A DNA stretch of 64,000 nucleotides from Sulfurovum sp. TSL6 (GCF_019972115.1 NZ_BPFJ01000002.1:62001-126000); one strand, 5' to 3'. Counted from the stretch's first letter, positions 39,190 to 55,607 are shown. The notes: generated by a model from the letters alone, not told the origin. Numbers and translations: made by a program.

Positions 39190-40833
39190 CTAGAACCAAA
39201 AAAGCTGTACTATGTTTAACACCAGCATCCCTACAAAACCTACGCGGCATACAAGAAGCGGATTTCTCTCTATAATAGATTTACTTTTATCAAAGTACGG
39301 TTGTACTTTCAAAGGATTACTGACTTCATACTGCATTTCTGAGTAGTTTCTGTAACGTTGGTCTGTATCAGTCTCAAGAGCTCTTAAAATAATACTCTCA
39401 AACCATGCAGGTATTTTAGGGTTTAATTTACAGGGTGCTTTGATACTTTTTTCAAAAGATGGGTTTTGAAAAGGTTCTATCTCTCCAAATGGATACTTTT
39501 GTGTCAGTACTTCATAGAGTGTCACACCTATGGCATAGATCTCTGTCTGTTCATTGACCGGTGCCTGTTTAAAACGTTCTGGTGCCAGATATGAAGGTGT
39601 TCCTGCGCGTGTCACATTGGAGTAAGCTTCAGTAATACTTCCAAAATCCACCATTTTAAATACCAACTTACCTTTACGTTCTGTCAGCATGATATTTTCT
39701 GGCTTGATATCACCATGCACTAAGTCATATTTCATCAAAAAATGTGACATCTTGAGCAAAAAACAAGCCAATTCAACACTCAAGTCCACAGAGAGCGGTT
39801 TTTTTGCACAGTACTCTTTGAGTGTTTGACCTTCTATGAAACTCATAATGTAGTAACGATGTGTACGGTTTTTAGGGATCACTGCTTTAGGGAAAAAACC
39901 TGCCTTCAGTCTCTTTGCCATCCACACTTCTTTGACAAACAGGTCAATCATGATCTCATCATACATCGCTTCATATGGTATGAACTTCATCACATAATTA
40001 AATCCCCGTTTTTCACAAAGCCAAGTACGTTCATTTTGGATCAAAGGTTTAAGCAGTGTATAGCCATCAATAACTTCACCCGCTTTATAATGCTCACGTA
40101 CGATGAGATCACTTTGCTTCAACTTAAGCCGAGGATCTACCTCTTTAATTTCAAGGACAATGGCTGTGGTATCATCAGGAAGATCAGCATGATGTAATTT
40201 ACTTGCTTTTTTTACTAAAAAAGAAGCACCCATTTTCATATCTGATCTAAGTTCATCATCTGAAAGTTCATTATAAAGTCCATCACTACAAAGAAGTATC
40301 AAGTCACCCGCCAAAAGGTTATTTTCAAAATAATATGGTGAAACATTCTCCTCTAGTCCCATAGCTGCCATCAGTACATTTTCCATACCCTCTTCATCCA
40401 TAGTATGATCTTCAGAGAGTTGGGTGAGTTTCGTATCACCATCAATATTTCTATGTAAATAGATGCGGCTATCCCCTACATTCGCACCGTACAGTCTGTC
40501 GCCTTCTATCACGACCAATGCCAGAGTAGTAACCAGTTCTTCACGATCATATTCTGCCATCGAATCAAGATAAAGTACTCTGTTGATATTTTCTATAAAA
40601 TGTTTTATGGACTTTTCCATGGTCCAGCTTTTTGGTCTATTTTTGAGCGCATTGATCAAAAAATTAGTTGTGTGTTTGGCGGCCTGTGCCCCTTGTAGAG
40701 CAGATCCTACTCCATCACAGACAACAGCGACAGTAATGTTCTCCATCACCTTCACTTCAAAAAAATCATCCCCTTTGAGCTGTGTACCTTTAGCAAGTGT
40801 GAGTCCTGATGTTTCGATACTTTGTTTTGACAT
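39190..40833 (-). CDS. PP2C phosphatase - Ser/Thr protein kinase fusion
   Basis: A 547-residue bifunctional signalling protein. Residues 1-235 are a PP2C phosphatase: GDDFFEV, VVCDGVGSALQGAQAAK, LYGANVGDSRIYLHR, LLCSDGLYNELSDDEL and DDTTAIVLE give the metal-binding aspartates. Residues 255-520 are a protein kinase: catalytic Lys in NYVMKFIPYE, VHGDIKPENIML (HxD loop), MVDFGSI (DFG), GTPSYLAPERF (APE), with a poorly conserved glycine loop. A C-terminal transmembrane helix (LLVCRVGFVGMLVLNIVQLFWF) anchors it. The same fusion sits in the nitrate-assimilation cluster of Pseudomonas (PA1782 group), matching its place after the nitrate transporter here. Confidence 0.88.
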   Translation of the reverse strand: MSKQSIETSGLTLAKGTQLKGDDFFEVKVMENITVAVVCDGVGSALQGAQAAKHTTNFLINALKNRPKSWTMEKSIKHFIENINRVLYLDSMAEYDREELVTTLALVVIEGDRLYGANVGDSRIYLHRNIDGDTKLTQLSEDHTMDEEGMENVLMAAMGLEENVSPYYFENNLLAGDLILLCSDGLYNELSDDELRSDMKMGASFLVKKASKLHHADLPDDTTAIVLEIKEVDPRLKLKQSDLIVREHYKAGEVIDGYTLLKPLIQNERTWLCEKRGFNYVMKFIPYEAMYDEIMIDLFVKEVWMAKRLKAGFFPKAVIPKNRTHRYYIMSFIEGQTLKEYCAKKPLSVDLSVELACFLLKMSHFLMKYDLVHGDIKPENIMLTERKGKLVFKMVDFGSITEAYSNVTRAGTPSYLAPERFKQAPVNEQTEIYAIGVTLYEVLTQKYPFGEIEPFQNPSFEKSIKAPCKLNPKIPAWFESIILRALETDTDQRYRNYSEMQYEVSNPLKVQPYFDKSKSIIERNPLLVCRVGFVGMLVLNIVQLFWF

Positions 40834-41069: not shown

Positions 41070-42350
41070 TTAGATCATACCACCTGCTTTGACTCCCCAA
41101 GTTGTTCTCCATCTGGTCTTCACAAGTGAGATACCTGCGATCGCTACTAAAACAACGGCTGCAAATATCATAAACCCTGTGGTATACCCATCAAAAGCAC
41201 CTTTTGACCAACCCAGTGTCTTGATCAATGCGGTACCACCAAGACCACCGGCTGCACCGATGATTCCTGTCATAATACCAATGTCTTTACCAAATCTTTG
41301 CGGAACCAGTTGGAATACTGCTCCATTGGCCATACCCAGGTTTGCCATGATAAGGAAAAGCACCACTATGGCTAGTCCAAACGGTAATGCTATTGTAGCA
41401 TTCACTACAGCCAGTGTTGCAACAGTACCGAAGAAAATATAAAGAGATTTTACACCACCCATTTTATCTGCAATGGCACCCCCTACAGGTCGAAGTACTG
41501 CACCGGCAAAAATACACACTGCGCCAAAATAACCTGCAACCACTTTTACATTGCTTTCATCCAATATATCAAGTCCGAAGGCACTCATGTCTACTTGATA
41601 AGTGTTCATTAAATAGACTTTCATATATCCTGCAAAACCTACAAACCCACCAAAACTCACTGCATAGAAAAGGTTAAACCACCATGTATCTTTATCTTTA
41701 AGAAGTTTTCCATAATCAGAGAGTTTTTTAGGTCTCGCTTTATAGACGGATTCTGGTGCATTTTTAGCGAGAAATACATAGGCTATCCACACCACTATAG
41801 CCATGACTGCACCTACTAGGAATACTGTTTCCCAGCCCCATTTTTCTGCGATCTTTGGAGCAAATAAGAAGTCAATGACCACACCGATGTTACCTGCCCC
41901 TGCAAGGCCAAGTACAATACCTTGAGACTTAGGCGGATACCATTGACCTGCCTGCGGAAGTGCCACAGCAAACGATGCTCCGGCAAAACCAAGTCCTAGA
42001 GCGACAATAAGTAAAGCATTATAAGTAATGCTCTCACCCATAAAATATGCCATAAGCAATGCTGCTATTACCACTGACTGTGCAATCAAAGCTGTGAGTT
42101 TCGCACCGAGTTTATCAACCCCAAAACCAAGTAAAATTCTTAACAATGCTCCAGATAAAATAGGAAGTGAAAGTAAAGTAGCTTTTTCACCTGCTGTGAT
42201 CATATAACCTGTAGCGGCTAATGCCTCACTTATTTCTGTAGAAAGTGGACCCAACATGGTCCAAACCATAAAACTCATATCAAAATATAAAAAGGCCATG
42301 AACAACGTTGGTGTGTGTCCCTGCCCTTTTAATGCCTTGAATCCTGCCAT
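41070..42350 (-). CDS. nasA: NarK/NasA-type MFS nitrate/nitrite transporter
   Basis: A 426-residue major-facilitator transporter with about 12 membrane helices. FMAFLYFDMSFMVWTMLGPLSTEIS at the start holds the conserved substrate Arg-region helix pattern of the NarK family; GFAGASFAVALPQAGQWYPPKSQGIVLGLAGAGNIG and AVCIFAGAVLRPVGGAIADKMGG are the two nitrate-signature regions rich in Gly. ATG at 42350 has an AAAGGAG ribosome site. It is transcribed divergently from cysG and the nitrate/nitrite reductase genes, with a palindromic operator candidate 69 bases upstream. It likely imports nitrate for assimilation. Confidence 0.88.
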   Translation of the reverse strand: MAGFKALKGQGHTPTLFMAFLYFDMSFMVWTMLGPLSTEISEALAATGYMITAGEKATLLSLPILSGALLRILLGFGVDKLGAKLTALIAQSVVIAALLMAYFMGESITYNALLIVALGLGFAGASFAVALPQAGQWYPPKSQGIVLGLAGAGNIGVVIDFLFAPKIAEKWGWETVFLVGAVMAIVVWIAYVFLAKNAPESVYKARPKKLSDYGKLLKDKDTWWFNLFYAVSFGGFVGFAGYMKVYLMNTYQVDMSAFGLDILDESNVKVVAGYFGAVCIFAGAVLRPVGGAIADKMGGVKSLYIFFGTVATLAVVNATIALPFGLAIVVLFLIMANLGMANGAVFQLVPQRFGKDIGIMTGIIGAAGGLGGTALIKTLGWSKGAFDGYTTGFMIFAAVVLVAIAGISLVKTRWRTTWGVKAGGMI

Positions 42351-42380: not shown

Positions 42381-42435
42381 AGTATACAATGATAAGAGAG
42401 CCAACATTAATGACTTAATGATTAATTTTTAATCA
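42381..42435 (-). promoter_or_regulatory. nasA promoter with 17-bp palindromic operator
   Basis: TGATTAATTTTTAATCA at 42419-42435 is a near-perfect palindrome, 69 bases upstream of the transporter ATG. Exactly 43.5 bases from its centre, on the minus strand, is TATACT (42386-42381), a 5/6 match to a sigma70 -10. The position of the -35 shows no TTGACA-like sequence, so an activator bound at the palindrome would be needed. The same palindrome precedes amt1 and amt2. Confidence 0.65.
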
Positions 42436-42495
42436 ATTATATTTTGCCTAAAAATGGGATGAAATCGATGTTAAAATTTTAGTTTTAAAACACAT

Positions 42496-42550
42496 TGATT
42501 AAAAAATATACAATCTAATGGATACGTATCTATCCTTTTGGAGATATAAT
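42496..42550 (+). promoter_or_regulatory. cysG-nir-nas promoter with imperfect operator
   Basis: TGATTAAAAAATATACA at 42496-42512 matches the palindrome (in its reverse-complement form) at 14 of 17 positions. A perfect TATAAT -10 lies at 42545-42550, again centred 43.5 bases downstream of the operator centre. No good -35 is present. It should drive the siroheme synthase, nitrite reductase and nitrate reductase genes. Confidence 0.6.
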
Positions 42551-42569
42551 CCTTACAATCATAAAGAGG

Positions 42570-43844
42570 ATGAACAGAGAGATGAAAGAAAGACAAACTT
42601 TACCCATACTACTGAAGGAACAGCATATCCTTTTGATCGGTGGCGGGAATGTAGCATTACAAAAAGCAGAAGTATTGGCAGAGAATAATATCTCTTTTTC
42701 TGTCATATCTAAAGAAGCGCATCCTAAGATCCAAGCATTGTGTTCTGACATACAAATCAAAAATTTCAAAACCAAAGATATTCAGAATAACCTCATCGTG
42801 ATAGATGCAACAGGAAATGAAAAAGTCACACAAAAGCTTTTGAAATATAAACGCAAACATCCTCTTTTACTCAACGTGGTAGATAAACCTAAAGTATGTG
42901 ATTTCTACTTTATGGCATTGACAAAAAATGCACCTCTGCAGATAGCCGTGTCAAGTTCGGGTGCAAGCCCTACTGTGGCTAAATACTTCAGAGATAGGTG
43001 TCAGGCACTCATACCTGATAACATGGAAACATTTTTAGACATACTGCAAGCACAAAGAAACAAAGGTATCATAGAGATACAAAAAACGCTTGAAGAAATC
43101 GAAAAAATGACAGCGAAAGCGTATCTGGTAGGGTGTGGTCTAGGAGATCCTGAACTGCTTACACTCAAAGCCTATAATATTATAAAAGAGGTTGATGTTG
43201 TCCTGTATGACCACCTCATCTCTGATGAGATCATGGCTATCGTACCGGAGCGTACAAAAAAAGTCTTTGTAGGTAAAGAAAAAGGATTTCATACCAAACC
43301 TCAAGAAGAGATCAATAAACTCATACGCAAATATATCAAAAAAGGCTACTCGGTTGCACGATTAAAAAGCGGTGATCCTTTCATCTTTGGTCGTGGAGCT
43401 GAAGAGTTACTCTACCTTGCACAAAAAGGAATAAAAGCTGAAGTGATACCAGGTATTTCTTCTGCAGTATCCGGACCATTGATGGCAGATATTCCAATCA
43501 CAGCAAGGGATTACAGCAATGCCTTTACGGTAGTATCAGCCCACTTAAAAGGGAATTCCATCAATCTTGACTGGGTACCGATGCTGGAAAACAGAGACCA
43601 TACGGTCATCGTACTTATGGGGCTTACACGTATCAAAGAGATCGTGCAGCAGGCAAAAACATTAAATATAGAGATGAACACACCTTGTGCCATTGTCTCC
43701 AATGCAAGCAGAAAAAACCAGACTGTACTCACCACGACACTTGAGAATCTTGAAGAAGCTTCTCTTTGGGCTTCAAGACCTTCTATATTGGTCTTTGGAG
43801 ATGTCATACACTATACAAACACACTAAAAGAGAGTCAAAAATGA
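42570..43844 (+). CDS. cysG: siroheme synthase CysG (two-domain)
   Basis: A 424-residue fusion making siroheme from uroporphyrinogen III. Residues 1-180 are the precorrin-2 dehydrogenase/ferrochelatase domain (LLIGGGNVALQKAEVL, VVDKPKVCDFYF, VSSSGASPTVAKYFRD). Residues 182-420 are the SAM methyltransferase: AYLVGCGLGDPELLTLKAYNII, VLYDHLISDEIM, RLKSGDPFIFGRGAEEL, EVIPGISSAVSGP, PITARDYSNAFTVVSAH. ATG at 42570 sits right after AAAGAGG; the ATG four codons later is a fair alternative. It overlaps nirA (ATGA) and supplies siroheme to that enzyme. Confidence 0.93.
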   Translation: MNREMKERQTLPILLKEQHILLIGGGNVALQKAEVLAENNISFSVISKEAHPKIQALCSDIQIKNFKTKDIQNNLIVIDATGNEKVTQKLLKYKRKHPLLLNVVDKPKVCDFYFMALTKNAPLQIAVSSSGASPTVAKYFRDRCQALIPDNMETFLDILQAQRNKGIIEIQKTLEEIEKMTAKAYLVGCGLGDPELLTLKAYNIIKEVDVVLYDHLISDEIMAIVPERTKKVFVGKEKGFHTKPQEEINKLIRKYIKKGYSVARLKSGDPFIFGRGAEELLYLAQKGIKAEVIPGISSAVSGPLMADIPITARDYSNAFTVVSAHLKGNSINLDWVPMLENRDHTVIVLMGLTRIKEIVQQAKTLNIEMNTPCAIVSNASRKNQTVLTTTLENLEEASLWASRPSILVFGDVIHYTNTLKESQK

Positions 43845-45760
43845 GCATTTTAGAAAAAGCCTTTAAGGCAAGAAATAATAAAGTCAATAAAGTAGAGACA
43901 ACCAAAGCACTAAAGATGCCGATGGATGTCTACAATAAGTTAGAAGAGATCGCTGCAGCCGGATATGAAGGTTTAGCCAAAGAAGACAGTGCATATTTTT
44001 TAAAATGTTTTGGACTCTTTGATAAAGGTGACGACTTTATGCTTCGCATTCGTGTACCTGCAGGACAATTAAACTACGAACAAACTTTACGTATCGGTGA
44101 ATTGGCTCAAAAGTATGGTAATGACTATATAGATCTCACGACACGTATGCAGATCGAACTGCGTTACTTGCAGATAGCAGACATTGCCAAAGTACTGGCC
44201 GAGCTCCATGAAGTAGGTATCTCTACTTTTCAGACCGGTGTGGACAATCCTCGTAACATCGTAGCCGATCCATTAGATGGTATCGCTTACGATAACATCA
44301 TCAAGACAAAACCTATTATCGACGAACTGCAAGCGGTATTTGCTGAAGATCCGGATTGGATCTCTGTCTTGCCTCGTAAATTCAATACAGGAATACTAGG
44401 TTCACTTTCCAACTCCTGTAATATCTTTGGGCATGACTGCTGTTTCGTCTTGGCTCAAAAAGACGGGCTGTTTGGGTTCAATGTCTATTTAGGCGCACGT
44501 GTAGGTGTGCAGGCACAAGATGCAAACTTATTTGTACAGATCGATGAAGTCCCTCTCTTTTACAAATCACTTCTCACGCTTTTCAAAACCTATGGATACA
44601 GAGATAACCGAAATAAAAACCGTTTGGTTTTCCTTCTTAATGATGTAGGTATGGAAAACTTTGTAGAAGCACTGCAAAAAGAAGCAGGCTGCCTATTTAG
44701 TACTGCCGGTACAACGATGGTACAGTCTCAGTCTATTGCCCTGGGTTCGGACAAGGTACTGGGGCGTAACGGGAAATATGCCTATAAACTCATCGTACCT
44801 TCTGGTATATTCACGGGTACCGATATGATAGAAGTAGCAAAAACAGCTCAGAGATTTGGATCAGGAGATGTCAGATTGACCTATGATCAAAACATCTATA
44901 TAGTCAACATCGACACAACAGATATTGAAGATCTTGAGTCTGAAGATGTCATCAAAGCGTATGCAAAATTCAACAACCTTTATTTTCATGATATGATCGC
45001 CTGTGCAGGAACCAAGACATGCAGTTTTGGTGTCATCCCTAATAAACCCGATGCCATAGAGATGGCACACTTTCTCAATTCTGAAATACCTATAGAAAAT
45101 GCAACCGTACGCATGAACTGGTCTGCCTGTCCTAAGGGGTGTGGAGTACATGGTATTGCTGATATAGGATTTGAAGGGTGTAAGGCTAAAGATGATGAAG
45201 GTAACCGTGTAGACGGTGTACACATTTTTCTCGGTGGTAAGATCACACGTGTGGCAAAAGAAGCACATACCTTACATAAAGCCCTACCGTTAACGGAAGC
45301 TAAATACCATGTGAAATATCTACTTAAAACCTATGCTGCATTTAAACAAAGAGGCGAAACCTATGAAGCCTTTGATGATAGATTTTTATCGGCGAATTAC
45401 TCGTTTCAAGCCCTTGGCTTTTACACAAAGATAAACTATATCCTGAATGAAAAACTGGGATTGGATCTTTGGTTTGAACTTGAAAATGAACCCAAAACAT
45501 TTAGAAAAGAAGAGTTTGAACTGTTTACTTTCGGGTTGAAACTCTTTAAACTGCTTACTGGTGAAAAGCGTTATGAATCGGTAGAAAACTTTGAACCTGT
45601 ACTGACCAAACCTAGAAGCATCACAAGAAATGAAGTCACTAAACTAAATCCAAAAATCCCAGAAAAACTCTCAGAGGTCATCTACACTATGACCCATCAA
45701 GAGAAAAGAGAACGCGCACAGGTCTTCTCTGAACTGATTGTAGCACTCAAAGAGATCTAA
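43841..45760 (+). CDS. nirA: siroheme nitrite reductase (assimilatory, ferredoxin-type)
   Basis: A 639-residue nitrite/sulfite reductase hemoprotein that reduces nitrite to ammonium. Two ferredoxin-like halves with YGNDYIDLTTRMQIELRYLQ and FGSGDVRLTYDQNIYIVNI precede siroheme-[4Fe-4S] cysteines at CAGTKTCSFG (about residue 387) and SACPKGCG (about 429). The SSN-type motif GSLSNSCNIFGHDC is in the first half. Its place between siroheme synthase and nitrate reductase argues for nitrite rather than sulfite. ATG at 43841 overlaps the cysG TGA. The C-terminal 150 residues are longer than in plant NirA. Confidence 0.9.
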   Translation: MSILEKAFKARNNKVNKVETTKALKMPMDVYNKLEEIAAAGYEGLAKEDSAYFLKCFGLFDKGDDFMLRIRVPAGQLNYEQTLRIGELAQKYGNDYIDLTTRMQIELRYLQIADIAKVLAELHEVGISTFQTGVDNPRNIVADPLDGIAYDNIIKTKPIIDELQAVFAEDPDWISVLPRKFNTGILGSLSNSCNIFGHDCCFVLAQKDGLFGFNVYLGARVGVQAQDANLFVQIDEVPLFYKSLLTLFKTYGYRDNRNKNRLVFLLNDVGMENFVEALQKEAGCLFSTAGTTMVQSQSIALGSDKVLGRNGKYAYKLIVPSGIFTGTDMIEVAKTAQRFGSGDVRLTYDQNIYIVNIDTTDIEDLESEDVIKAYAKFNNLYFHDMIACAGTKTCSFGVIPNKPDAIEMAHFLNSEIPIENATVRMNWSACPKGCGVHGIADIGFEGCKAKDDEGNRVDGVHIFLGGKITRVAKEAHTLHKALPLTEAKYHVKYLLKTYAAFKQRGETYEAFDDRFLSANYSFQALGFYTKINYILNEKLGLDLWFELENEPKTFRKEEFELFTFGLKLFKLLTGEKRYESVENFEPVLTKPRSITRNEVTKLNPKIPEKLSEVIYTMTHQEKRERAQVFSELIVALKEI

Positions 45761-47364
45761 TGGTAGAAGCACTCAGTAAGCATACCCCTTTAGAGAATTT
45801 CATCGAGCATAAAACCAATGCCGGTATGCAGTGTGGTAACTACAGTATCGATCTGCCAGAACTTGGTGCGGGGGAACAGTACCGTTTTCACTTTGACGCC
45901 ACGGCCTGTGTGGGCTGTCACTGCTGTGAAGTTGCCTGTAATGAACAAAATGCAAATCCCGATGAGATCAAATGGAGAAGGGTCGGAGAGATGGAAATGG
46001 GTACATTCCCTGACACACTTCAGCTTTTCAACTCTATGAGTTGTAATCACTGTATAGAACCGGAATGTCTCATAGGCTGTCCTACAAACTCATATATAAA
46101 ATTTGACAATGGTATCGTTTGGCATGATGATCCTTCATGCATTGGATGTCAATATTGTACATGGAACTGTCCCTACGAAGTACCTACCTTTAATGCAGAC
46201 AGAGGCATCGTAACCAAGTGTCATATGTGTGCGGATAAACTTGAAGCAGGCCAAAGTCCTGCCTGTGTACAAGCCTGTCCGAGTAATGCCATAGAGATAG
46301 AGGCTTTTAATGTCAAACAATGGCTTGAAGAGGATATGGAAAAAGAAGGCATAGCCCCTCACCTCCCGGATATAGAGATCACCAAACCCACTACAAGATA
46401 CACACTGCCTGTACTCAAAGAGGAAGAGGAACTACGTGTGGCTGATGAACATTTACTCAAACCTGCACATGCTGAACTTCCTCTTGTTTTTATGACCGTA
46501 CTCACGCAAGTCTCTTTAGGCGCATTCCTAGCACTCTTTTTGGGACAACTGCTCTTCTCTTTAGGCTTTAATCTTCCAGAACCGACATTGGTCATGGCGT
46601 TACTTGCCTTTTTACCATCCGCTCTAGGTTTACCGCTTTCTGCCTTGCACTTGGGACGTCCCATTAAGGCAATGTCAGCGATGAAGAACTGGAGAACTTC
46701 CTGGCTTTCGCGTGAAGCCATTGCTCTGGGTGCATTTACAGGACTGGCTACGATGGTCTCTGCGCTTTATTATTTCGAAGTAAAAGGTTTCATTTTGCTT
46801 CTTCTTGAAGCCATCACGCTGGCTGTAGGGATTTACGGTATCTATGCGCAGTCGATGATATACCGTATCAAAGCGCGTCCTGCATGGAACAGAAAATCTA
46901 CGACCAAACGTTTTTTTGGTTCAAGCTATATAGGTTTTTTACTTATTTCCACTGCTTTACTTGTTTCAAACGGGGAAGAAGGAGCGATAGTACTCTTGTC
47001 TATCACCCTTCTTGCCGGTATGGGTCAGGCTTTAGTGATACTTGAAGAAATAATGTTCTACCGTCACTTAAATCAAGAGGATCCACTCTATTACCAATAC
47101 AACAGAAGCCGTATACTGCTTCAAGAACATTTTGGTTCGATAAAAACATTCAGGGTCTACTCTTTGGCACTCTTTGCACTGAGTTTACCTCTTTTGTCCA
47201 TTTTGTTTACTGCAAGTGGTTTAATAAGTTTGGCGATCACAACACTCATGGTCGCAACACTCGGTGCATTGACAAGTGAATTAGCAGGAAGATACCTCTT
47301 TTATAGAACAGTGGTGCCTTTAGGTTTAGCAGGAAATTTCTTTGCCGGTAACCAGAGACACTAG
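45760..47364 (+). CDS. fused DmsB-like iron-sulfur and DmsC-like membrane subunit
   Basis: A 534-residue fusion. Residues 40-215 carry four [4Fe-4S] cysteine groups as in DmsB/NarH-like proteins: CVGCHCCEVAC, CNHCIEPECLIGC, CIGCQYCTWNC and CHMCADKLEAGQSPACVQAC. Residues 240-530 have eight hydrophobic helices of the DmsC type, which oxidise quinol in the membrane (LPLSALHLGRPIKAMSAMKNWRTSWLSREA). The usual arrangement is two separate genes. The TAATG junctions on either side place it between nitrite and nitrate reductase genes, so it probably carries electrons from menaquinol to the adjacent nitrate reductase. Confidence 0.85.
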   Translation: MVEALSKHTPLENFIEHKTNAGMQCGNYSIDLPELGAGEQYRFHFDATACVGCHCCEVACNEQNANPDEIKWRRVGEMEMGTFPDTLQLFNSMSCNHCIEPECLIGCPTNSYIKFDNGIVWHDDPSCIGCQYCTWNCPYEVPTFNADRGIVTKCHMCADKLEAGQSPACVQACPSNAIEIEAFNVKQWLEEDMEKEGIAPHLPDIEITKPTTRYTLPVLKEEEELRVADEHLLKPAHAELPLVFMTVLTQVSLGAFLALFLGQLLFSLGFNLPEPTLVMALLAFLPSALGLPLSALHLGRPIKAMSAMKNWRTSWLSREAIALGAFTGLATMVSALYYFEVKGFILLLLEAITLAVGIYGIYAQSMIYRIKARPAWNRKSTTKRFFGSSYIGFLLISTALLVSNGEEGAIVLLSITLLAGMGQALVILEEIMFYRHLNQEDPLYYQYNRSRILLQEHFGSIKTFRVYSLALFALSLPLLSILFTASGLISLAITTLMVATLGALTSELAGRYLFYRTVVPLGLAGNFFAGNQRH

Positions 47365-47377
47365 AAAGGAATACACA

Positions 47378-49693
47378 ATGAGCATCATAAAAAAGATAAA
47401 AGATTTTCTGGGTACAGATATCAAAGAGGATAAATATGCCTTGGTCGATGATCCTATCTTTGGGAAAGTAGCCAAAAACAAAGCCCCGGATAAATGGGTA
47501 CGTTCAACCTGTGGATATTGTGGTGTAGGCTGTGGTATGTACATCGGTGTAAAAAACGGTAAAGCCGTTTACTCAAAAGGTGATCCGCTGCATCCTGTGA
47601 ATATGGGTACACTTTGTCCTAAAGGTCTCAGTGAGCACAAGATGGTCGGAGCGGACTCTCGTGTACATGCTCCCCTCATCAGAAAAAATGGAATGCTTAC
47701 ACCAGCAACATGGGAAGAGACTTTTCAAAAAACCTCTGAGACGTTCAAGCGTATACAAGCAGAGCATGGAAAAGGTGCTGTAGCGGTCATCTCCACTGGT
47801 CAATTACTTACCGAAGAGTTCTATACGTTAGGTAAATTTGTTCAACTCGGACTCGAAACCAATAATTACGATGGAAATACCACACTTTGTATGGCTTCTG
47901 CCGTCATGGGGTATAAACAGACCTTTGGATCTGATGGCCCGACCGGCTGTTATGAAGACTTTGAAAAAGCAGATGTCATACTGCTTATAGGTGCAAATAT
48001 CGCAGACAATCATCCCATCTTGAAACTTCATATCGCAAAAAATGAATCAGTCACTGGGAAAAAACCAACCATCATTGTTGTGGATCCGCGTAAATCCAAA
48101 ACATCCCAGATGGCAGATATCTTTGTCCCTTTGGCGCCAAGGAGTGATCTGGCACTGATCAATGGTTTATGTTACATCATTATGGAACAAGGTTGGGAAG
48201 ATGAGAAGTTCATTCACTCACGTACCAACGGATATAATGAATTTAAAAAACATATACTGGCGAACTACCCTCCTCAGGAAGTTTCCCAGATCACCGGTAT
48301 CGAGGTCAAGGAACTCTATCACCTGGCAAAGGTTTACGCTACGGTTGACAAAGCAATGAGTGCATGGACCATGGGCGTCAATCAAAGCAGTATTGGTACA
48401 GATACAGTATCTGCTATTTGTAATCTTGCTTTGATCACCGGGAATCTAGGTCGTGAAGGTGCTACACCCATGTCCATTACAGGTCAATGTAATGCTATGG
48501 GTACAAGGGAATTCGGATTTACCTCTTCTATCCCTGGGTATAGGAATTATGCGAGTCAAAGTGATAGGAAAGCCTTTGCAGATATTATCAATGTACCTGA
48601 AGATCTTATACCTACAGCTAGAGGCTATGCGTATCCTCAAATCATAGATGCCATCAATCGCGGTGAGATCAAAGCTTTATGGGTGGTTGCAACCAATCCT
48701 TTAGTCTCTTATCCTGACCAAAATGCTTTACGTTCAGCACTAAAAAAACTGGATATTCTTGTCGTTCAAGATGCCTTTATGTCAGACACTGCCCAAATCG
48801 CTGATGTGTTTTTTGCTGCGGCCACCTGGAGCGAAAAAGAGGGGTGTTATACCAACTCTGAAAGACGTTGTAACTATGCTAAAAAAGCTGTAGAACCTTT
48901 GGCTGAAAGTAAAGCCGATCTTGACATCGTCAAAGAATTTTCAAAATACTTTGACGGCAAGTACGATCTTCTTTTTAAAGATCTTCATACACCTAGAGAT
49001 GTATTTAATGAGATTAAAGAAGTGAGTAAGGGTCAACTTTGTGACTATAGCGGTATGGACTACGAACGTATAGAAGAGTTAGGCGGTATACAATGGCCTT
49101 GTAATGATAAAGCACCCGATGGGACCAAACGTCTTTATTCTGAAGAGATGGCCTGTAACACAGCTGATGGGAAAGCAAACCTTCTGGCTGTAGACTGGAA
49201 ACCACTCTCAGAAATGGCATGTGAGGGCTTACCTTTTATGCTCAACACAGGAAGAACCGTAGAACAGTTCCATACAAGAACAAAAACAGGAACCGTAGGT
49301 ATACTTGATGCTCTAGCGCCCGAAGCATGGGTAGAATTGAGTCCAAAAGATGCACATAAGCTCCAAGTCAACAGCGGTGACCGCATCGCACTTTCAGGGT
49401 CACGCGGCCGTGTCGAAGATGTCATCGTAAAAGTAAGTGAAACAGTCAAAGAAGGCCATGTCTTTGTTCCTTTTCATTTCAACGAACAGCTTATTAACAA
49501 CGTTACCATCCCGGAATTTGATGCCAAATCCTTTGAACCCAATTATAAACAGTGTGCGGTACAACTACACTCAGAAGCCGTACCTGAGGGTATAGTCTAT
49601 AAAGAGCCCGAAATAACAGGTTACCTAGAAGGCGTGAAAGTCTATAATGAAGAGGTCATAAGTGAGGAAAAAGTTGAGAGTACTAAGACGTAA
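47378..49693 (+). CDS. nasC: molybdopterin nitrate reductase catalytic subunit (assimilatory type)
   Basis: A 771-residue member of the DMSO-reductase family. N-terminal [4Fe-4S] ligands CGYCGVGC (about residue 44) and CPKG (about 78); molybdenum ligand Cys in NTTLCMASAVMGYKQ (about 170), as in NarB/NasC/NapA; GANIADNHPILKLHI, VVDPRKSKTSQMADI, NLALITGNLGREGATPMSITGQCNAMG, and the C-terminal NTGRTVEQFHTRTKTG cofactor motif. No Tat signal, so cytoplasmic, fitting assimilation. The last 30 residues are an acidic tail. ATG at 47378 follows AAAGGA. It overlaps the convergent gene at 49683 by 11 bases. Confidence 0.9.
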   Translation: MSIIKKIKDFLGTDIKEDKYALVDDPIFGKVAKNKAPDKWVRSTCGYCGVGCGMYIGVKNGKAVYSKGDPLHPVNMGTLCPKGLSEHKMVGADSRVHAPLIRKNGMLTPATWEETFQKTSETFKRIQAEHGKGAVAVISTGQLLTEEFYTLGKFVQLGLETNNYDGNTTLCMASAVMGYKQTFGSDGPTGCYEDFEKADVILLIGANIADNHPILKLHIAKNESVTGKKPTIIVVDPRKSKTSQMADIFVPLAPRSDLALINGLCYIIMEQGWEDEKFIHSRTNGYNEFKKHILANYPPQEVSQITGIEVKELYHLAKVYATVDKAMSAWTMGVNQSSIGTDTVSAICNLALITGNLGREGATPMSITGQCNAMGTREFGFTSSIPGYRNYASQSDRKAFADIINVPEDLIPTARGYAYPQIIDAINRGEIKALWVVATNPLVSYPDQNALRSALKKLDILVVQDAFMSDTAQIADVFFAAATWSEKEGCYTNSERRCNYAKKAVEPLAESKADLDIVKEFSKYFDGKYDLLFKDLHTPRDVFNEIKEVSKGQLCDYSGMDYERIEELGGIQWPCNDKAPDGTKRLYSEEMACNTADGKANLLAVDWKPLSEMACEGLPFMLNTGRTVEQFHTRTKTGTVGILDALAPEAWVELSPKDAHKLQVNSGDRIALSGSRGRVEDVIVKVSETVKEGHVFVPFHFNEQLINNVTIPEFDAKSFEPNYKQCAVQLHSEAVPEGIVYKEPEITGYLEGVKVYNEEVISEEKVESTKT

Positions 49694-50534
49694 GTGCTTT
49701 CAGATCATTCAGATCAAACAACAGCAGATCATTGTCCTGTGTTTGTAACAGTTCATTTGAAAACCCGCTCTTGGAAAACAGTGCATAGACATCTACGTTT
49801 ATACCAGATTCCAAGGCTTTGGCTTTGAGCTTGGTCAATTCGTTCTTACACACTTTACGCTCTTTATACTTACACTCTCCCAAGATGATCTTTTTATCCT
49901 GACTGACTGCCAGAATGTCAAATTCACTGTGAATATTCCAAAAACTTCCACTATCCACTATCGTATTATGCTCTGCATAATGCTGTATTAAAAGTGCATC
50001 ACAAAGTTGTTCATAGACCAAAGAACGTAAACGCTCATAGTGTTTCTCAAAGTTCTTTAAAAATGCATCACCTTTCCCTACAGCCAAGTCTTTTTTATAA
50101 TACATCACAAAACCGAACCAGAAACGCATAAATGGCTGTACAAAACGCAGTTTATCCTGTACACGGTAAGAACGCTGCTCTTTTTTGAGTTTATGTTTGG
50201 GATGGTTACGCAACGGAGATTCTCTTGAGGCTTCGATTCTCAGCACATTTAAATCGACCAACTCTTGGACGATCTTCTCTCCCAAAGCCTCACTTACTTT
50301 TGCTTTTCTCAGTACAGAATATAGTTTTCCATCCCCTCTGGCCACTGCCATAAGTATTTCACGATACGGACTTTCTAAAAGGTATGAGGGAGAAACAAGT
50401 GCTTGAAATTTTGAGAAATTTTGCACAAAATTTGACTCTACCATGGAAAAAACATCATCAAAATAGTCTAGTTCTATATTTTTACCAATACCGCCCAAAA
50501 TAGAAAAATACTCAACAGCCTGTTCCAGCTCCAA
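49683..50534 (-). CDS. DUF234-like protein without its usual ATPase half
   Basis: A 283-residue protein. The middle (LLESPYREILMAVARGDGKLYSVLRKAKV, then IVQELVDLNVLRIEAS) is a winged helix and the C-terminal half (RFVQPFMRFWFGFVM, FDILAVSQDKKIILGECKYKERKVCKNEL) is the nuclease-like DUF234 domain with the D...E-x-K pattern. In most proteins these follow an AAA-type ATPase of about 200 residues; here nothing of that is seen, so it is a stand-alone or trimmed form. It is flanked by nitrogen genes on both sides but shows no obvious link to them. Confidence 0.7.
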   Translation of the reverse strand: MELEQAVEYFSILGGIGKNIELDYFDDVFSMVESNFVQNFSKFQALVSPSYLLESPYREILMAVARGDGKLYSVLRKAKVSEALGEKIVQELVDLNVLRIEASRESPLRNHPKHKLKKEQRSYRVQDKLRFVQPFMRFWFGFVMYYKKDLAVGKGDAFLKNFEKHYERLRSLVYEQLCDALLIQHYAEHNTIVDSGSFWNIHSEFDILAVSQDKKIILGECKYKERKVCKNELTKLKAKALESGINVDVYALFSKSGFSNELLQTQDNDLLLFDLNDLKALTS

Positions 50535-50634
50535 GTAAGAAAAATGTCGGTAAAACCTTTGAAATGATGCTTTGATGAAGTCCCTTTGTACATAAATTAA
50601 ATTATTTTAACATACTTTTATTTGAATTTTTGTA

Positions 50635-50651
50635 TGATTAATAATTAAACA
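50635..50651 (+). promoter_or_regulatory. imperfect operator at the ntrC-like promoter
   Basis: TGATTAATAATTAAACA matches the 17-bp palindrome at 14 of 17 positions. It overlaps a possible -10, TATGAT at 50633-50638, and ends 15 bases before the ATG of the NtrC-like gene. Unlike the other sites it is on, not upstream of, the promoter, which would fit autorepression. Confidence 0.45.
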
Positions 50652-50666
50652 ACACCAAAGAGTATT

Positions 50667-51401
50667 ATGGAAACATTTTTTAGCAAATCAGATAAGATAC
50701 AACATATCATCAAGAGTTTTACCCTCACAAAGACACTTTTTGTTTCATCCATCATCATCGGTGAAGCGCATACTGGTAAAAAATCACTTGCACGATACCT
50801 TTTCCCAGACACCCCTGTAGTTTCGGGTAATGATCAAAAAGAAGTTGAAGATGCACTTGAACATAATGATGAGCTTATCATCACAAATTTTGAAAAGCTC
50901 AGTAATCAAAACTCTCTTGATTTTACCAATAAACGTATTATTGCTACAGCAGATTATATGGGTAACTCAGAGCTCATTGATGATCTTTTTGCTTTTATTT
51001 ATGCTATGCCATCACTGCAAGAGCGTCCTGAAGACATCGAGTATTTAAAAGAGCTGTTCATTAAAGAGGCATGTTCTACTTTAATGATAGAAGAGAATAC
51101 ATTTGAACCTGAGTACATCCCACTAAACCTCACAAAAAATACTAAAAGTCTCAAAAGATCTGTCTATATACACCTGATGAAACAAAGTATGGATACCCAA
51201 GACATAGAAGAGATACTTTACCACTATTTACTGAAACACCTTGATGGTAATGATGCATACAGGGAACATCTTGGCTTGTATGAGAGGCCTCTTATAGAAG
51301 CGGGGCTTCAAAAATTTGGTTCACAACTGCAACTTTCACAGGTTTTAGGTATAAACAGAAACACACTTAGAAAGAAGATACATGAGCACAACATCGATTG
51401 A
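50667..51401 (+). CDS. reduced NtrC-like regulator (no receiver domain, no GAFTGA)
   Basis: A 244-residue protein resembling the AAA+ and DNA-binding parts of NtrC. Walker A is SIIIGEAHTGKKSLARYLF (about residues 28-46); ELIITNFEKL stands where the Walker B strand should be; KRIIATADYMG matches the sensor I strand (RIIAATN); MPSLQERPEDIEYLKELFI matches the PPLRERxEDI block. Between Walker A and B about 45 residues that normally include the GAFTGA loop are missing, and there is no N-terminal receiver domain. The C-terminus (EAGLQKFGSQLQLSQVLGINRNTLRKKI) is a Fis-type helix-turn-helix. Without GAFTGA it should not activate sigma54. It overlaps the PAS gene by 20 bases. Confidence 0.72.
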   Translation: METFFSKSDKIQHIIKSFTLTKTLFVSSIIIGEAHTGKKSLARYLFPDTPVVSGNDQKEVEDALEHNDELIITNFEKLSNQNSLDFTNKRIIATADYMGNSELIDDLFAFIYAMPSLQERPEDIEYLKELFIKEACSTLMIEENTFEPEYIPLNLTKNTKSLKRSVYIHLMKQSMDTQDIEEILYHYLLKHLDGNDAYREHLGLYERPLIEAGLQKFGSQLQLSQVLGINRNTLRKKIHEHNID

Positions 51402-52083
51402 TTTTAAATCTTTTATAGAATGGGACAGCAATCCTTTCATACTTTTCAGTGATCAGGGGAAAATACTCTACCTCAATAACGCTGCAGAGATCTTGTTTGG
51501 ATATGTCACTAAAAAAGAGCTTTATGATATTGCTTTATCTTATGCGCCTCAGACTTTTGGTTATAAGACTACTGCACTGGCACTGAATTATGATACTTAC
51601 ATATTTCACGCTATTACAGTAGGATATGAGAATGAAGAGCAAATTTCCTTACGCTTATACAACACTCCGCGTATTAAATCAGCGCGTAAAATAGAAAAAG
51701 ACAAACTCATAACCACAGATATCAACACCTTACTTGAAGCGAACATAGCACTTTTTAGAACAAAGAATTCCAATCCCATTAAGCTTTTAACCGATCAGGA
51801 TTTACCTGCATTTAAAATAGACCAAAATAATTTTTCCAAACTTATAAGAAAAACACTGAATGCATTTAGAGCTTCTGACTCCATTGATATTTCTCTTAAA
51901 CTACTCTTTGGTCAGCATGTCATGATAGAAGATAATAAAGTAGCCATCGCACAACTTGCCATACTTGCCAATGGACGTTACGCAGATACAGATGAGGAGA
52001 TATGTACGCATGCAGAAATAAGTCAGATCAAATGTATTCTTAAAGAACACTCTATTAAACTTGAAATACCTCTTGTTCAATAA
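51382..52083 (+). CDS. NtrB-like PAS protein with degenerate kinase region
   Basis: A 233-residue protein. Residues 8-95 form a PAS domain in NtrB style (FIEWDSNPFILFSDQGKILYLNNAAEILFGYV). No His-containing phosphotransfer helix follows. Residues 120-233 look like a decayed HATPase domain: DQNNFSKLIRKTLNAFRASDSIDISLKL resembles the N box, and SQIKCILKEHSIKLEIPLV the closing strand, but G boxes are absent. It could still sense PII or a small molecule and act through binding. Co-transcribed with the NtrC-like gene. Followed directly by a 17-bp stem hairpin that contains the operator. Confidence 0.65.
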   Translation: MSTTSIDFKSFIEWDSNPFILFSDQGKILYLNNAAEILFGYVTKKELYDIALSYAPQTFGYKTTALALNYDTYIFHAITVGYENEEQISLRLYNTPRIKSARKIEKDKLITTDINTLLEANIALFRTKNSNPIKLLTDQDLPAFKIDQNNFSKLIRKTLNAFRASDSIDISLKLLFGQHVMIEDNKVAIAQLAILANGRYADTDEEICTHAEISQIKCILKEHSIKLEIPLVQ

Positions 52084-52148
52084 GCAACCGGATTGATTAA
52101 AAATTAATCAATCCGGTTGCGATAAAAAAAACCCAATCATGTTACTAT
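52084..52148 (+). promoter_or_regulatory. amt1 operator inside a 17-bp perfect hairpin, with -10
   Basis: GCAACCGGATTGATTAA (52084-52100) pairs perfectly with its inverted repeat at 52104-52120 around a three-base AAA loop. It begins on the base after the stop of the PAS gene. The centre is TGATTAAAAATTAATCA (52094-52110), the exact reverse complement of the nasA site. TACTAT at 52143-52148 (4/6 to TATAAT) lies 43.5 bases downstream of the centre. The hairpin lacks a T run on either strand, so it is more likely an operator that also folds in RNA than a classical terminator. Confidence 0.6.
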
Positions 52149-52182: not shown

Positions 52183-53490
52183 ATGAAATTAAAACTTTCA
52201 GCTCTAATGGCAATGTTTTTGCCAATCTTCGCTTTCGCAGAAGATAAACTGGACACAGGTGATACAGCATGGATGATGGTATCAACAGCATTTGTACTTC
52301 TTATGACACCAGCAGGATTGGCACTTTTCTATGGTGGTATGACAAGAAGTAAAAACGTATTGAATACCTATGCAATGGTAATGGGTGCATTTGTACTTGC
52401 ATTTGTAGTATGGGTCATCGCAGGTTACTCTATCGCATTTGGAACCAATGAAAGCGCTATGCTTCAAAATGTATTTGGTGGATTTGGTGATGTGATGCTT
52501 AGTGGTATTAAGTGGACTGATCTTTCTGGTACATACCCTACTTATGTATTTATAGCATTCCAAGGTACATTTGCTGCTATTACTGTAGCTATCGCTTCAG
52601 GTTCTGTTATCGGACGTATGAAGTTCTCAACATGGATGGTGATAGTTGCTCTATGGGGTCTTCTTGTTTATGCACCAATAACACACATGGTATGGGGTGG
52701 TGACGGTGCACTTCTTTTTGATGCGGGTGCACTTGATTTTGCCGGTGGTACTGTTGTGCATATGAATGGTGGTTTAGCTGGTCTCGTACTTGCGATCTTA
52801 GTAGGTAAAAGAGCTGGTTACCCTAAAGTAGCTATGAAACCATATAGTATCCTTCTTACTGCTGTAGGTGCAGCATTATTATGGTTCGGTTGGTATGGAT
52901 TTAATGGTGGTTCTGCATTTGGTGCAAACGCTATCGCTGGTCTTGCTGTAATGACAACAACGGTTGCAACTGCTGCAGCTGCTGTAACTTGGATGCTACT
53001 TGAGTGGTTTGTCTTTAAAAAGCCAACACTTCTTGGTATTGCTTCAGGTATCATTGCCGGTCTTGTTGCGATTACACCTGCTGCTGGTTTTGTAAGCGTT
53101 GGTGGAGCATTTATTGTAGGTATCGTTGGTGCTATCATTGCATTCTTCGGTGTTGTAACACTTAAGAAAAAACTTGGTTATGATGATTCTCTTGATGCAT
53201 TTGGTATCCACTTCTTAGCAGGTCTCTGGGGTGCTCTTGCAACTGGTCTTCTTGCACTTGATGACAAAGATCTTCTCTGGGATGGTCCACTTAAAGAGAG
53301 TGGTGACAGAATGGGACAATTCATGGTACAACTTGAATCAGTAGCCGTTGTTGGTCTCTTTACACTTATCGGAACTGTTATTGTTTACTATATCGCTTCA
53401 GCGATCACAGGTGGGGCAAGAGTAGATGAAGAAACTGAGTCAACTGGTCTTGATGAAACAATTCACGGTGAAAATGTAGTGAATGCTTAA
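52183..53490 (+). CDS. amt: ammonium transporter Amt (with signal peptide)
   Basis: A 435-residue ammonium channel with a cleavable signal peptide (MKLKLSALMAMFLPIFAFA) and 11 membrane helices. The twin-histidine pore residues are in TVVHMNGGLAGL and DAFGIHFLAGLWG; AFYGGMTRSKNVLN-type start (ALFYGGMTRSKNVLN) and GWYGFNGGSAF are family hallmarks. The C-terminal tail contains GGARVDEETE, the PII-contacting region. AAAGGA ribosome site. A glnB gene follows 37 bases on, the usual amt-glnK pair, so uptake is probably blocked by PII when nitrogen is plentiful. Confidence 0.94.
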   Translation: MKLKLSALMAMFLPIFAFAEDKLDTGDTAWMMVSTAFVLLMTPAGLALFYGGMTRSKNVLNTYAMVMGAFVLAFVVWVIAGYSIAFGTNESAMLQNVFGGFGDVMLSGIKWTDLSGTYPTYVFIAFQGTFAAITVAIASGSVIGRMKFSTWMVIVALWGLLVYAPITHMVWGGDGALLFDAGALDFAGGTVVHMNGGLAGLVLAILVGKRAGYPKVAMKPYSILLTAVGAALLWFGWYGFNGGSAFGANAIAGLAVMTTTVATAAAAVTWMLLEWFVFKKPTLLGIASGIIAGLVAITPAAGFVSVGGAFIVGIVGAIIAFFGVVTLKKKLGYDDSLDAFGIHFLAGLWGALATGLLALDDKDLLWDGPLKESGDRMGQFMVQLESVAVVGLFTLIGTVIVYYIASAITGGARVDEETESTGLDETIHGENVVNA

Positions 53491-53524
53491 GGCATTGACT
53501 ACACTATAATTTATAAAGGATTAA

Positions 53525-53924
<400 letters not shown>

Positions 53925-53946: not shown

Positions 53947-53998
53947 TGATTAATTTTTAATCACTTTTATCCTAATTTACTCATCATCATTCTATAAA
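53947..53998 (+). promoter_or_regulatory. amt2 promoter with perfect copy of the 17-bp palindrome
   Basis: TGATTAATTTTTAATCA at 53947-53963, identical to the nasA site. A TATAAA (-10 match 5/6) follows at 53993-53998, centred 40.5 bases downstream, three bases closer than in the other three promoters. The amt2 ATG is 119 bases from the site. Confidence 0.55.
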
Positions 53999-54081
53999 CT
54001 GCTTTATTTTCGAACAACAGACACTTTCAATCCCTTCCAATACCCGATACAATACTAGCACTAGAATATAAGGAACTAAAT

Positions 54082-55254
54082 ATGGAAATAAATTACGTCC
54101 TAGATACCTTCTTCGCGATCTTTGCCATGACCCTCATCATCTTCATGGTGCCAGGCTTTGCAATGCTCGAAGCAGGATTGGTACGAACAAAAAATGTCAC
54201 TTCTGTTCTGACAGTAAATGTGATGATCTATGCAATAGCTTCTCTGGCTTTTTTACTTATAGGCTATGAACTTGCATTTGGAAGCTGGGATCATCAGGAT
54301 GGTATGAGCAAATGGGCATTTTTTATGTTTCAAATGGCATTTGTAGGTAAAGTAGTCAATATTATGAGTGGTGGAGTGAGTGAACGTTCTCGTATACTGC
54401 CTTTGGCCATATTTACGGTTCTTGTCGGAGCCTTAATCTATCCTATTATTGTAAACCTTACATGGGGAGCAAACTTTTTAGCTGGAACAGCCTTGGATAT
54501 TTCATCGCTTTCTGACCTTGCAGGGTCAACCGTGATCCATTCTACCGGAGGCTGGGCACTGCTTGCAGCTATCCTCATTATGGGACCTAGACGTGGAAGA
54601 TACAAAGATAATATAGTCCGTGTTATCCCAGCATCCAACATTCCTTTAGTCACATTGGGAGCTTTATTGCTCTGGATCGGTTGGTTTGGATTTAACGGTG
54701 GTTCTGTTGGATCGATCTCATCCAAAGAGAATGCTGATGCCGTTGCACTCACAATCATGAACACCAATACAGCGGGTCTTGCAGGAGCTATCGCAGGCTG
54801 GCTGCTGACTTACTTCAGATATAAGAAATTCGATATCACCGTGATACTCAATGGTGCATTAGGCGGGCTTGTCGCAGTCACAGCCGGCCCTGACCAATAT
54901 GACATTTATACACCTATACTCATTGGTGCAATTGGTGGCGCTTTGGTTGTCTTATTTGTACCTATTTTCGATAAGTTGAGAATGGATGATCCTGTAGGTG
55001 CCTTATCTGTGCACTTAGTGAATGGTATCTGGGGTACACTTGCAGTAGGTATTTTTGTAGCAGATGTAAGCATCTGGACACAATTAAAAGGTATACTTGT
55101 TGTAGGTATTATTGTTTTTCCACTTTCATGGGTTACAATATATATTATTAACAAAATCTTTGTACTTCGTGCAAATGATGAAGAACAACTAGAGGGAATC
55201 GATGCGACAGAATGTGGTATAGAGTCATACCCTGAATTTAAACGTAGTATATAA
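54082..55254 (+). CDS. ammonium transporter Amt, second type (no signal peptide)
   Basis: A 390-residue ammonium transporter that starts directly in the first helix (NYVLDTFFAIFAMTLIIFMVPGFAMLEAGLVRTKNV), unlike amt1. Pore histidines are in TVIHSTGGWALLA and LSVHLVNGIWGTLAVG. It is diverged from amt1 and has a different selectivity-filter surrounding. A PII gene follows 11 bases on. Ends with a tail (EEQLEGIDATECGIESYPEF), the segment that binds PII in related proteins. Two amt-glnB pairs in tandem suggest use at different ammonium levels (inference). Confidence 0.92.
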   Translation: MEINYVLDTFFAIFAMTLIIFMVPGFAMLEAGLVRTKNVTSVLTVNVMIYAIASLAFLLIGYELAFGSWDHQDGMSKWAFFMFQMAFVGKVVNIMSGGVSERSRILPLAIFTVLVGALIYPIIVNLTWGANFLAGTALDISSLSDLAGSTVIHSTGGWALLAAILIMGPRRGRYKDNIVRVIPASNIPLVTLGALLLWIGWFGFNGGSVGSISSKENADAVALTIMNTNTAGLAGAIAGWLLTYFRYKKFDITVILNGALGGLVAVTAGPDQYDIYTPILIGAIGGALVVLFVPIFDKLRMDDPVGALSVHLVNGIWGTLAVGIFVADVSIWTQLKGILVVGIIVFPLSWVTIYIINKIFVLRANDEEQLEGIDATECGIESYPEFKRSI

Positions 55255-55262
55255 GGAGATAA

Positions 55263-55607
<345 letters not shown>

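Follow-up and report, generated by a model that had tools for sequence, protein, structure and literature searches.

A receiver-less NtrC relative as a candidate activator of sigma-70 promoters of nitrogen acquisition genes in Sulfurovum and its order

Introduction

The NtrC box of Escherichia coli, TGCACCAnnnTGGTGCA, spans 17 bp and has TG and CA ends (PMC8743547). In Rhodobacter capsulatus and Caulobacter, NtrC proteins that lack the GAFTGA motif act on sigma-70 promoters, as described in PMC10274813 and work cited there; for the R. capsulatus protein PMC10274813 cites a report that binding of ATP, not its hydrolysis, is essential. TyrR, a class I sigma-70 activator, uses boxes 33-42 bp upstream of the -35 element (PMC4374768). 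Here we analyse a 64,000-nucleotide stretch of DNA from Sulfurovum sp. TSL6 (GCF_019972115.1, NZ_BPFJ01000002.1:62001-126000; hereafter the window, numbered from its first letter), in which 17-bp palindromes lie at nearly the same distance upstream of the -10 boxes of nitrate assimilation and amt genes, and which also encodes a short relative of NtrC, P0001, and a remnant of NtrB, P0002. We consider it probable, from sequence comparison, that the palindromes are operators of P0001 and that this protein activates sigma-70 promoters of nitrogen acquisition genes from a position near -53.

The palindromes share the 17-bp frame and the TG and CA ends of the E. coli NtrC box, and the two proteins resemble NtrB and NtrC of that organism in their PAS and catalytic domains on the one hand and their AAA+ domain and Fis-type helix-turn-helix (HTH) on the other, as well as in the company of nitrogen genes and nearby PII; they differ in being without the phosphorelay parts and sigma-54. 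With the R. capsulatus and Caulobacter proteins P0001 has in common its NtrC ancestry, the deletion of GAFTGA, a retained Walker A motif, a connection with nitrogen genes and the sigma-70 action reported for them; in those bacteria, however, the receiver and its aspartate persist and NtrB is a true kinase, whereas in P0001 and P0002 the receiver, about 60 residues of the AAA+ domain and the DHp domain have been lost. TyrR is likewise an NtrC-type protein working with sigma-70 polymerase through a palindromic TG...CA box, with self-repression of the kind we predict for P0001, and the fact that the position of its site sets activation or repression is a further likeness; it differs in its N6 box of 18 bp, in the placing of its activating boxes relative to a -35 element and in its signal, the aromatic amino acids. 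VpsR of Vibrio cholerae (PMC10274813 names VspR) is also of NtrC type, without GAFTGA and at sigma-70 promoters, but it is longer, has a receiver-type domain and is not described as a nitrogen regulator. Precedents lacking GAFTGA are known, then, and P0001 is shorter than these. In open-access papers we found no earlier description of the regulator or of its motif.

Results

Palindromes and -10 elements

For nasA, cysG and amt1 the sequence-only reading had given a single distance, 43.5 bp, between the centre of the palindrome and the -10 box, and on re-reading the coordinates all three values proved correct. A set of promoters, 85 after dereplication, was assembled from sites preceding amt1, amt2, nasA, nirA/cysG, NrtA-like and porin genes of Sulfurovum genomes and, for other families of the order, from sites preceding amt. 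Each hexamer lying between 25.5 and 64.5 bp on the downstream side of the site was scored as a -10 element, with weights that we set from the general consensus and did not train on this genome. In 56 of the 85 promoters the top-scoring hexamer stood at 42.5 or 43.5 bp from the centre of the palindrome; 300 dinucleotide shuffles gave 4.2 such promoters on average and 11 at most, and in them the best of any adjacent pair of offsets reached no more than 14 promoters. The fixed distance is therefore real, as a 2-bp band and not as a single value: the exact figure of 43.5 is not universal, orthologous promoters occupying a band of 42-44 bp, mostly at 42.5 or 43.5, with 41.5 in some genomes of family f16. 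The spacing is constant to about 1 bp across unrelated promoters (amt1, amt2, nasA, nirA/cysG, nrtA, porins and one glnA), and also across families.

The absence of a -35 hexamer from these promoters, likewise claimed earlier, is true: matches to it in the 85-promoter set equalled those of shuffled spacers, and we reject such an element here. It is not diagnostic, however, because lack of a -35 is the norm in this phylum. An extended -10 (TGn) is present in 28 of the 62 promoters that have a -10 at 41.5-43.5 bp.

The value first given for amt2, 40.5 bp, has to be abandoned. It was measured to TATAAA at 53993-53998, whereas the -10 conserved among orthologues is at 54048-54053, where they have TGATACACT or TGCTACACT in place of the TACAAT of the window. 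This conserved -10 is 95.5 bp from the perfect, distal site, and in most relatives that site is followed, at exactly 53 bp, by a second, from which the -10 is 42.5 bp downstream. In relatives this proximal site comes nearer to the consensus, with as few as one or two mismatches; the window copy alone is not convincing. Given the conserved -10 and the second site at 42.5 bp, amt2 obeys the rule as well, through a strong distal and a weak proximal site five helical turns apart.

Sites of this kind might also serve a repressor, which at -53 would block polymerase or loop between sites, and such a protein would account for the site lying over the -10 of the P0001 gene, a placing typical of repression, and for the tandem sites at amt2 and in the nas gap. 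A repressor needs no exact distance to the -10, however, while here the distance is held in many unrelated promoters, and the genes concerned scavenge nitrogen and would be expected to be switched on; we regard repression as very unlikely.

Putative operator sequence and its occurrence

The operator consensus is a 17-bp palindrome of 6-N5-6 form with the half-site TG[AC][TC]TA. The genome of the window (2.25 Mb) holds seven exact copies and none of the reversed pattern. That such sites could arise by coincidence in AT-rich intergenic DNA might be argued from the base composition of the genome and from the degenerate matches (up to 3 mismatches), which are no commoner in the window than chance allows (59 seen, 80 expected); the exact counts against the reversed control, the conservation of sites and spacing between species, and the shuffles described above dispose of this explanation, to which we give practically no weight. 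The regulon list for this genome consists of pattern matches, those with two mismatches being included only among the matches listed.

In 83 genomes with P0001, from three families, the mean number of exact sites is 2.4; in 63 genomes of four families without it the mean is 0.14, the reversed-pattern control being near zero across genomes. G242, a genome of the same genus, lacks P0001 as well as P0002; it contains no exact site, and none lies upstream of the amt2 that remains in it. In family f8 the operator is altered to TGTATA-N5-TATACA, most amt promoters there retain a distance of 42.5-43.5 bp between the promoter-proximal site and the -10, and the recognition helix reads NRITLRKK as against NRNTLRKK elsewhere, HTH residue N232 having become I.

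Three individual loci may be recorded here. In the genome of the window two near-perfect sites (G000:C1:836521 and 836616; L014, L015, L137) lie 95 bp apart, each followed by the same ATAATGAAATTTCATGC stretch, and a TATAAT ahead of a 93-amino-acid open reading frame (ORF) stands 42.5 bp from the nearer one. In a relative, a TATAAT preceding a glnA-like gene follows an exact site at a distance of 43.5 bp (L109, G106:C1:478530). In a genome without P0001 and P0002 (L186, G233), the amt gene is broken by a stop and the site upstream of it is kept, as if the system had been lost recently.

The putative regulator P0001 and its candidate partner P0002

Homologues of P0001 are found in 214 of the 299 genomes of the order, that of Sulfurovum sp. 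AR being 93% identical. The C-terminal Fis-type HTH scores above the cut-off for Pfam HTH_8, and the best NCBIfam match is ntrC, at 39.8 bits, below the cut-off of 558.6. The AlphaFold2 model (pLDDT 90.5) has sigma-54 activators as its best structural matches, among its fold matches being NtrC4 (Z 15.7, root-mean-square deviation 2.5, 172 residues aligned over 235 of the target, 23% identity), NtrX, which matches along nearly the full length, and VpsR (7v2b, Z 13.6). Walker A is kept in 36 of 37 homologues and the GAFTGA loop is absent from all 37. P0001 begins at its AAA+ domain, so has no receiver with a phosphorylatable aspartate; the domain itself is short by about 60 residues, and the strand matching Walker B reads IITNFE in place of Asp-Glu, with no conserved acidic pair. 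Judged from sequence and model, P0001 is a descendant of NtrC with an AAA+ fold of the sigma-54-activator type, and lacks the defining features of NtrC proper.

In P0002, residues 109-233 match NtrB (1r62) at Z 15.1, tied with other kinase catalytic domains. The model leaves no space between PAS and catalytic (CA) domains for a two-helix DHp, no His is invariant in 24 sequences (the only column with at least 50% His, 181, at 62.5%, is in the CA part), and the DxGxG nucleotide-binding box occurs in none of the 24. P0002 and P0001 are both present in 35 of 40 genomes and both missing in the other 5, even where their genes lie far apart, and PII genes adjoin both amt genes. P0002 probably passes a nitrogen signal by contact and not by phosphate transfer.

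A transcription factor encoded elsewhere and co-inherited with P0001 might be the protein that binds the palindromes, P0001 and P0002 being only members of its regulon: the P0001 gene indeed lies within the regulon and bears a site itself, and binding by P0001 is a prediction. We think this unlikely, since no other protein of the conserved cluster has an HTH, that of P0001 is NtrC-like, the site matches the NtrC box in length and in its TG...CA ends, the site sequence shifts in the family in which the recognition helix changes, and the sites are lost along with P0001.

Sigma factor

A search for rpoN (Sigma54_CBD) found none in the genome of the window (completeness 99.98) or in four other genomes of the genus; the sigma-54 core-binding domain was also not found in two f18 and several f8 genomes, and other families keep it. 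A. butzleri had earlier been reported to be without RpoN and NtrB/NtrC (PMC2147049). The NtrC ancestry of P0001 speaks for classical sigma-54 enhancer sites. With neither rpoN nor GAFTGA, however, a sigma-54 mechanism is excluded in this genome, and the boxes at fixed spacing are -10 elements of sigma-70 type, so that we reject this model as hardly conceivable. The operators are found, by sequence, at promoters of that type.

The promoters and genes of the window

The features are collected in Table 1. At the P0001 promoter, TA...T stands at the -10 position in 18 of 23 orthologues. The cysG/nirA-side operator is degenerate in the window; orthologues have a near-perfect site at the same place, 76-79 bp from the nasA site.

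Table 1. Putative regulatory elements and genes, in window coordinates
Feature	Position	Strand	Remarks
nasA-like major facilitator superfamily nitrate transporter	41070-42350	-	likely start 42350 (AAAGGAGAAAAAATGGCAGG), not the 42407 ATG of the longest ORF
nasA -10 TATACT	42381-42386, centre 42383.5	-	43.5 bp from site centre; TGTATAmT conserved at 42.5/43.5 in orthologues
nasA operator TGATTAATTTTTAATCA	42419-42435, centre 42427		exact palindrome; orthologous sites upstream of nasA in Sulfurovum genomes
cysG/nirA-side operator TGATTAAAAAATATACA	42496-42512, centre 42504		two mismatches
cysG -10 TATAAT	42545-42550	+	site centre 43.5 bp away; 42.5/43.5 in the majority of orthologous nirA promoters
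cysG, nirA, Fe-S/DmsC-type protein, molybdopterin oxidoreductase	42570-49693	+	nitrate/nitrite assimilation operon
P0001-gene -10 TATGAT	50633-50638	+	overlapped by operator
P0001-gene operator TGATTAATAATTAAACA	50635-50651		conserved at 23-34 bp from the ATG of P0001 in the majority of Sulfurovum
P0001, mini-NtrC, proposed binder	50667-51401	+	244 amino acids; shortened AAA+ domain retaining Walker A, and Fis-type HTH; receiver and GAFTGA absent
P0002, NtrB remnant	51382-52083	+	PAS and catalytic domain, no DHp; next gene after P0001
amt1 operator TGATTAAAAATTAATCA	52094-52110, centre 52102		within 37-bp perfect inverted repeat, 52084-52120
amt1 -10 TACTAT	52143-52148	+	TGT just before (extended -10); 43.5 bp from site
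amt1	52183-53490	+	with PII gene, 52183-53869
PII gene	53528-53869	+	
distal amt2 operator TGATTAATTTTTAATCA	53947-53963, centre 53955		
proximal amt2 operator TGCTTTATTTTCGAACA	54000-54016, centre 54008		degenerate, 5 mismatches; 53 bp downstream of the distal one
amt2 -10 TACAAT	54048-54053	+	42.5 bp from proximal site; conserved in orthologues
amt2	54082-55254	+	with second PII gene, 54082-55607
second PII gene	55266-55607	+	

The inverted repeat around the amt1 operator has the arms GCAACCGGATTGATTA..TAATCAATCCGGTTGC, and in a relative (L054, ~5415) the amt2 operator likewise lies inside a long repeat, of other sequence (GTGACCATCTTGATTA..TAAGCAAGATGGTCAC). An intrinsic terminator was ruled out for the amt1 repeat: a T-run follows it on neither strand, so it is not an ordinary terminator. 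An Rfam scan of the window returned one tRNA only, hence no known riboswitch or RNA leader. Adjoining the nitrate transporter gene is one for a PP2C phosphatase fused to a protein kinase domain (39190-40833, - strand); between the nas operon and the regulator gene, a DUF234-type protein is encoded (49683-50534, - strand), whose longest ORF starts with TTG and which is possibly a remnant.

Discussion

The sequence-only reading had seen in this arrangement an activator bound upstream of sigma-70 polymerase at about -53. With the corrections made above, to the fixed 43.5 bp, to the -35 as a diagnostic and to amt2, that proposal stands: P0001 and the sites occur together and vanish together, and rpoN is absent, so action on sigma-70 promoters from near -53 is the best reading.

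In the mechanism we propose, a P0001 dimer would bind centred near -53, one fixed step upstream of sigma-70 RNA polymerase, and would contact the polymerase directly, recruiting it to -10 or extended -10 promoters without a -35; recruitment by direct contact at a fixed step would tolerate 1 bp of slack and no more. Its predicted targets are the two amt-PII pairs, nitrate transport and reduction, an NrtA-like binding protein, porins and, in one relative, glnA, and it would act under nitrogen scarcity. With an operator over its own -10, P0001 should shut off its own gene. P0002 would relay the nitrogen signal through protein contact, the PII proteins encoded nearby being a possible source of it. 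Nucleotide binding may also have a role in P0001, because Walker A is kept and the R. capsulatus NtrC offers a precedent.

Several observations weigh against this proposal. The strongest sites are few: within the genus a genome has from 2 to 7 exact ones, and exact sites are missing from some genomes that do encode P0001 (e.g. G063, G076, G239). For about one promoter in three the highest-scoring -10 lies at another offset; second sites and sites of divergent genes make up some of these cases. Exact sites also occur at promoters without the geometry: before a cytochrome-oxidase-subunit-like gene in two genomes (L113 in G284, L126 in G290) the best -10 is about 63.5 bp away. In several families P0001 adjoins slyD, far from amt, and linkage there is no help; in L138-L147, L150 and L151 (f16, f20, f4, f18) its homologue directly follows a slyD-like gene, with neither amt nor P0002 alongside. 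Finally, the switch to TGTATA in f8 together with N232I, which would link P0001 to its site, is suggestive only, because it is one evolutionary event.

It seems to us about an even chance that NtrB and NtrC have here degenerated into two partners working without phosphate, a pseudo-kinase sensing nitrogen status, perhaps via PII, and a receiver-less mini-NtrC acting as a strict -53 sigma-70 activator, kept across most of the order, also where sigma-54 has been lost.

If the proposal is true, P0001 would be a nitrogen regulator for free-living Campylobacterota, for which none is described in the open-access literature searched. It would also provide a natural series of a sigma-54 enhancer protein becoming an ordinary sigma-70 activator, with the ATP-binding motif kept, sigma-54 contact and phosphorelay gone, and the site held at a single distance. 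Both the protein-DNA code and the contact with polymerase would be open to direct test in this collection of promoters from across the order, one family of which uses an altered operator.

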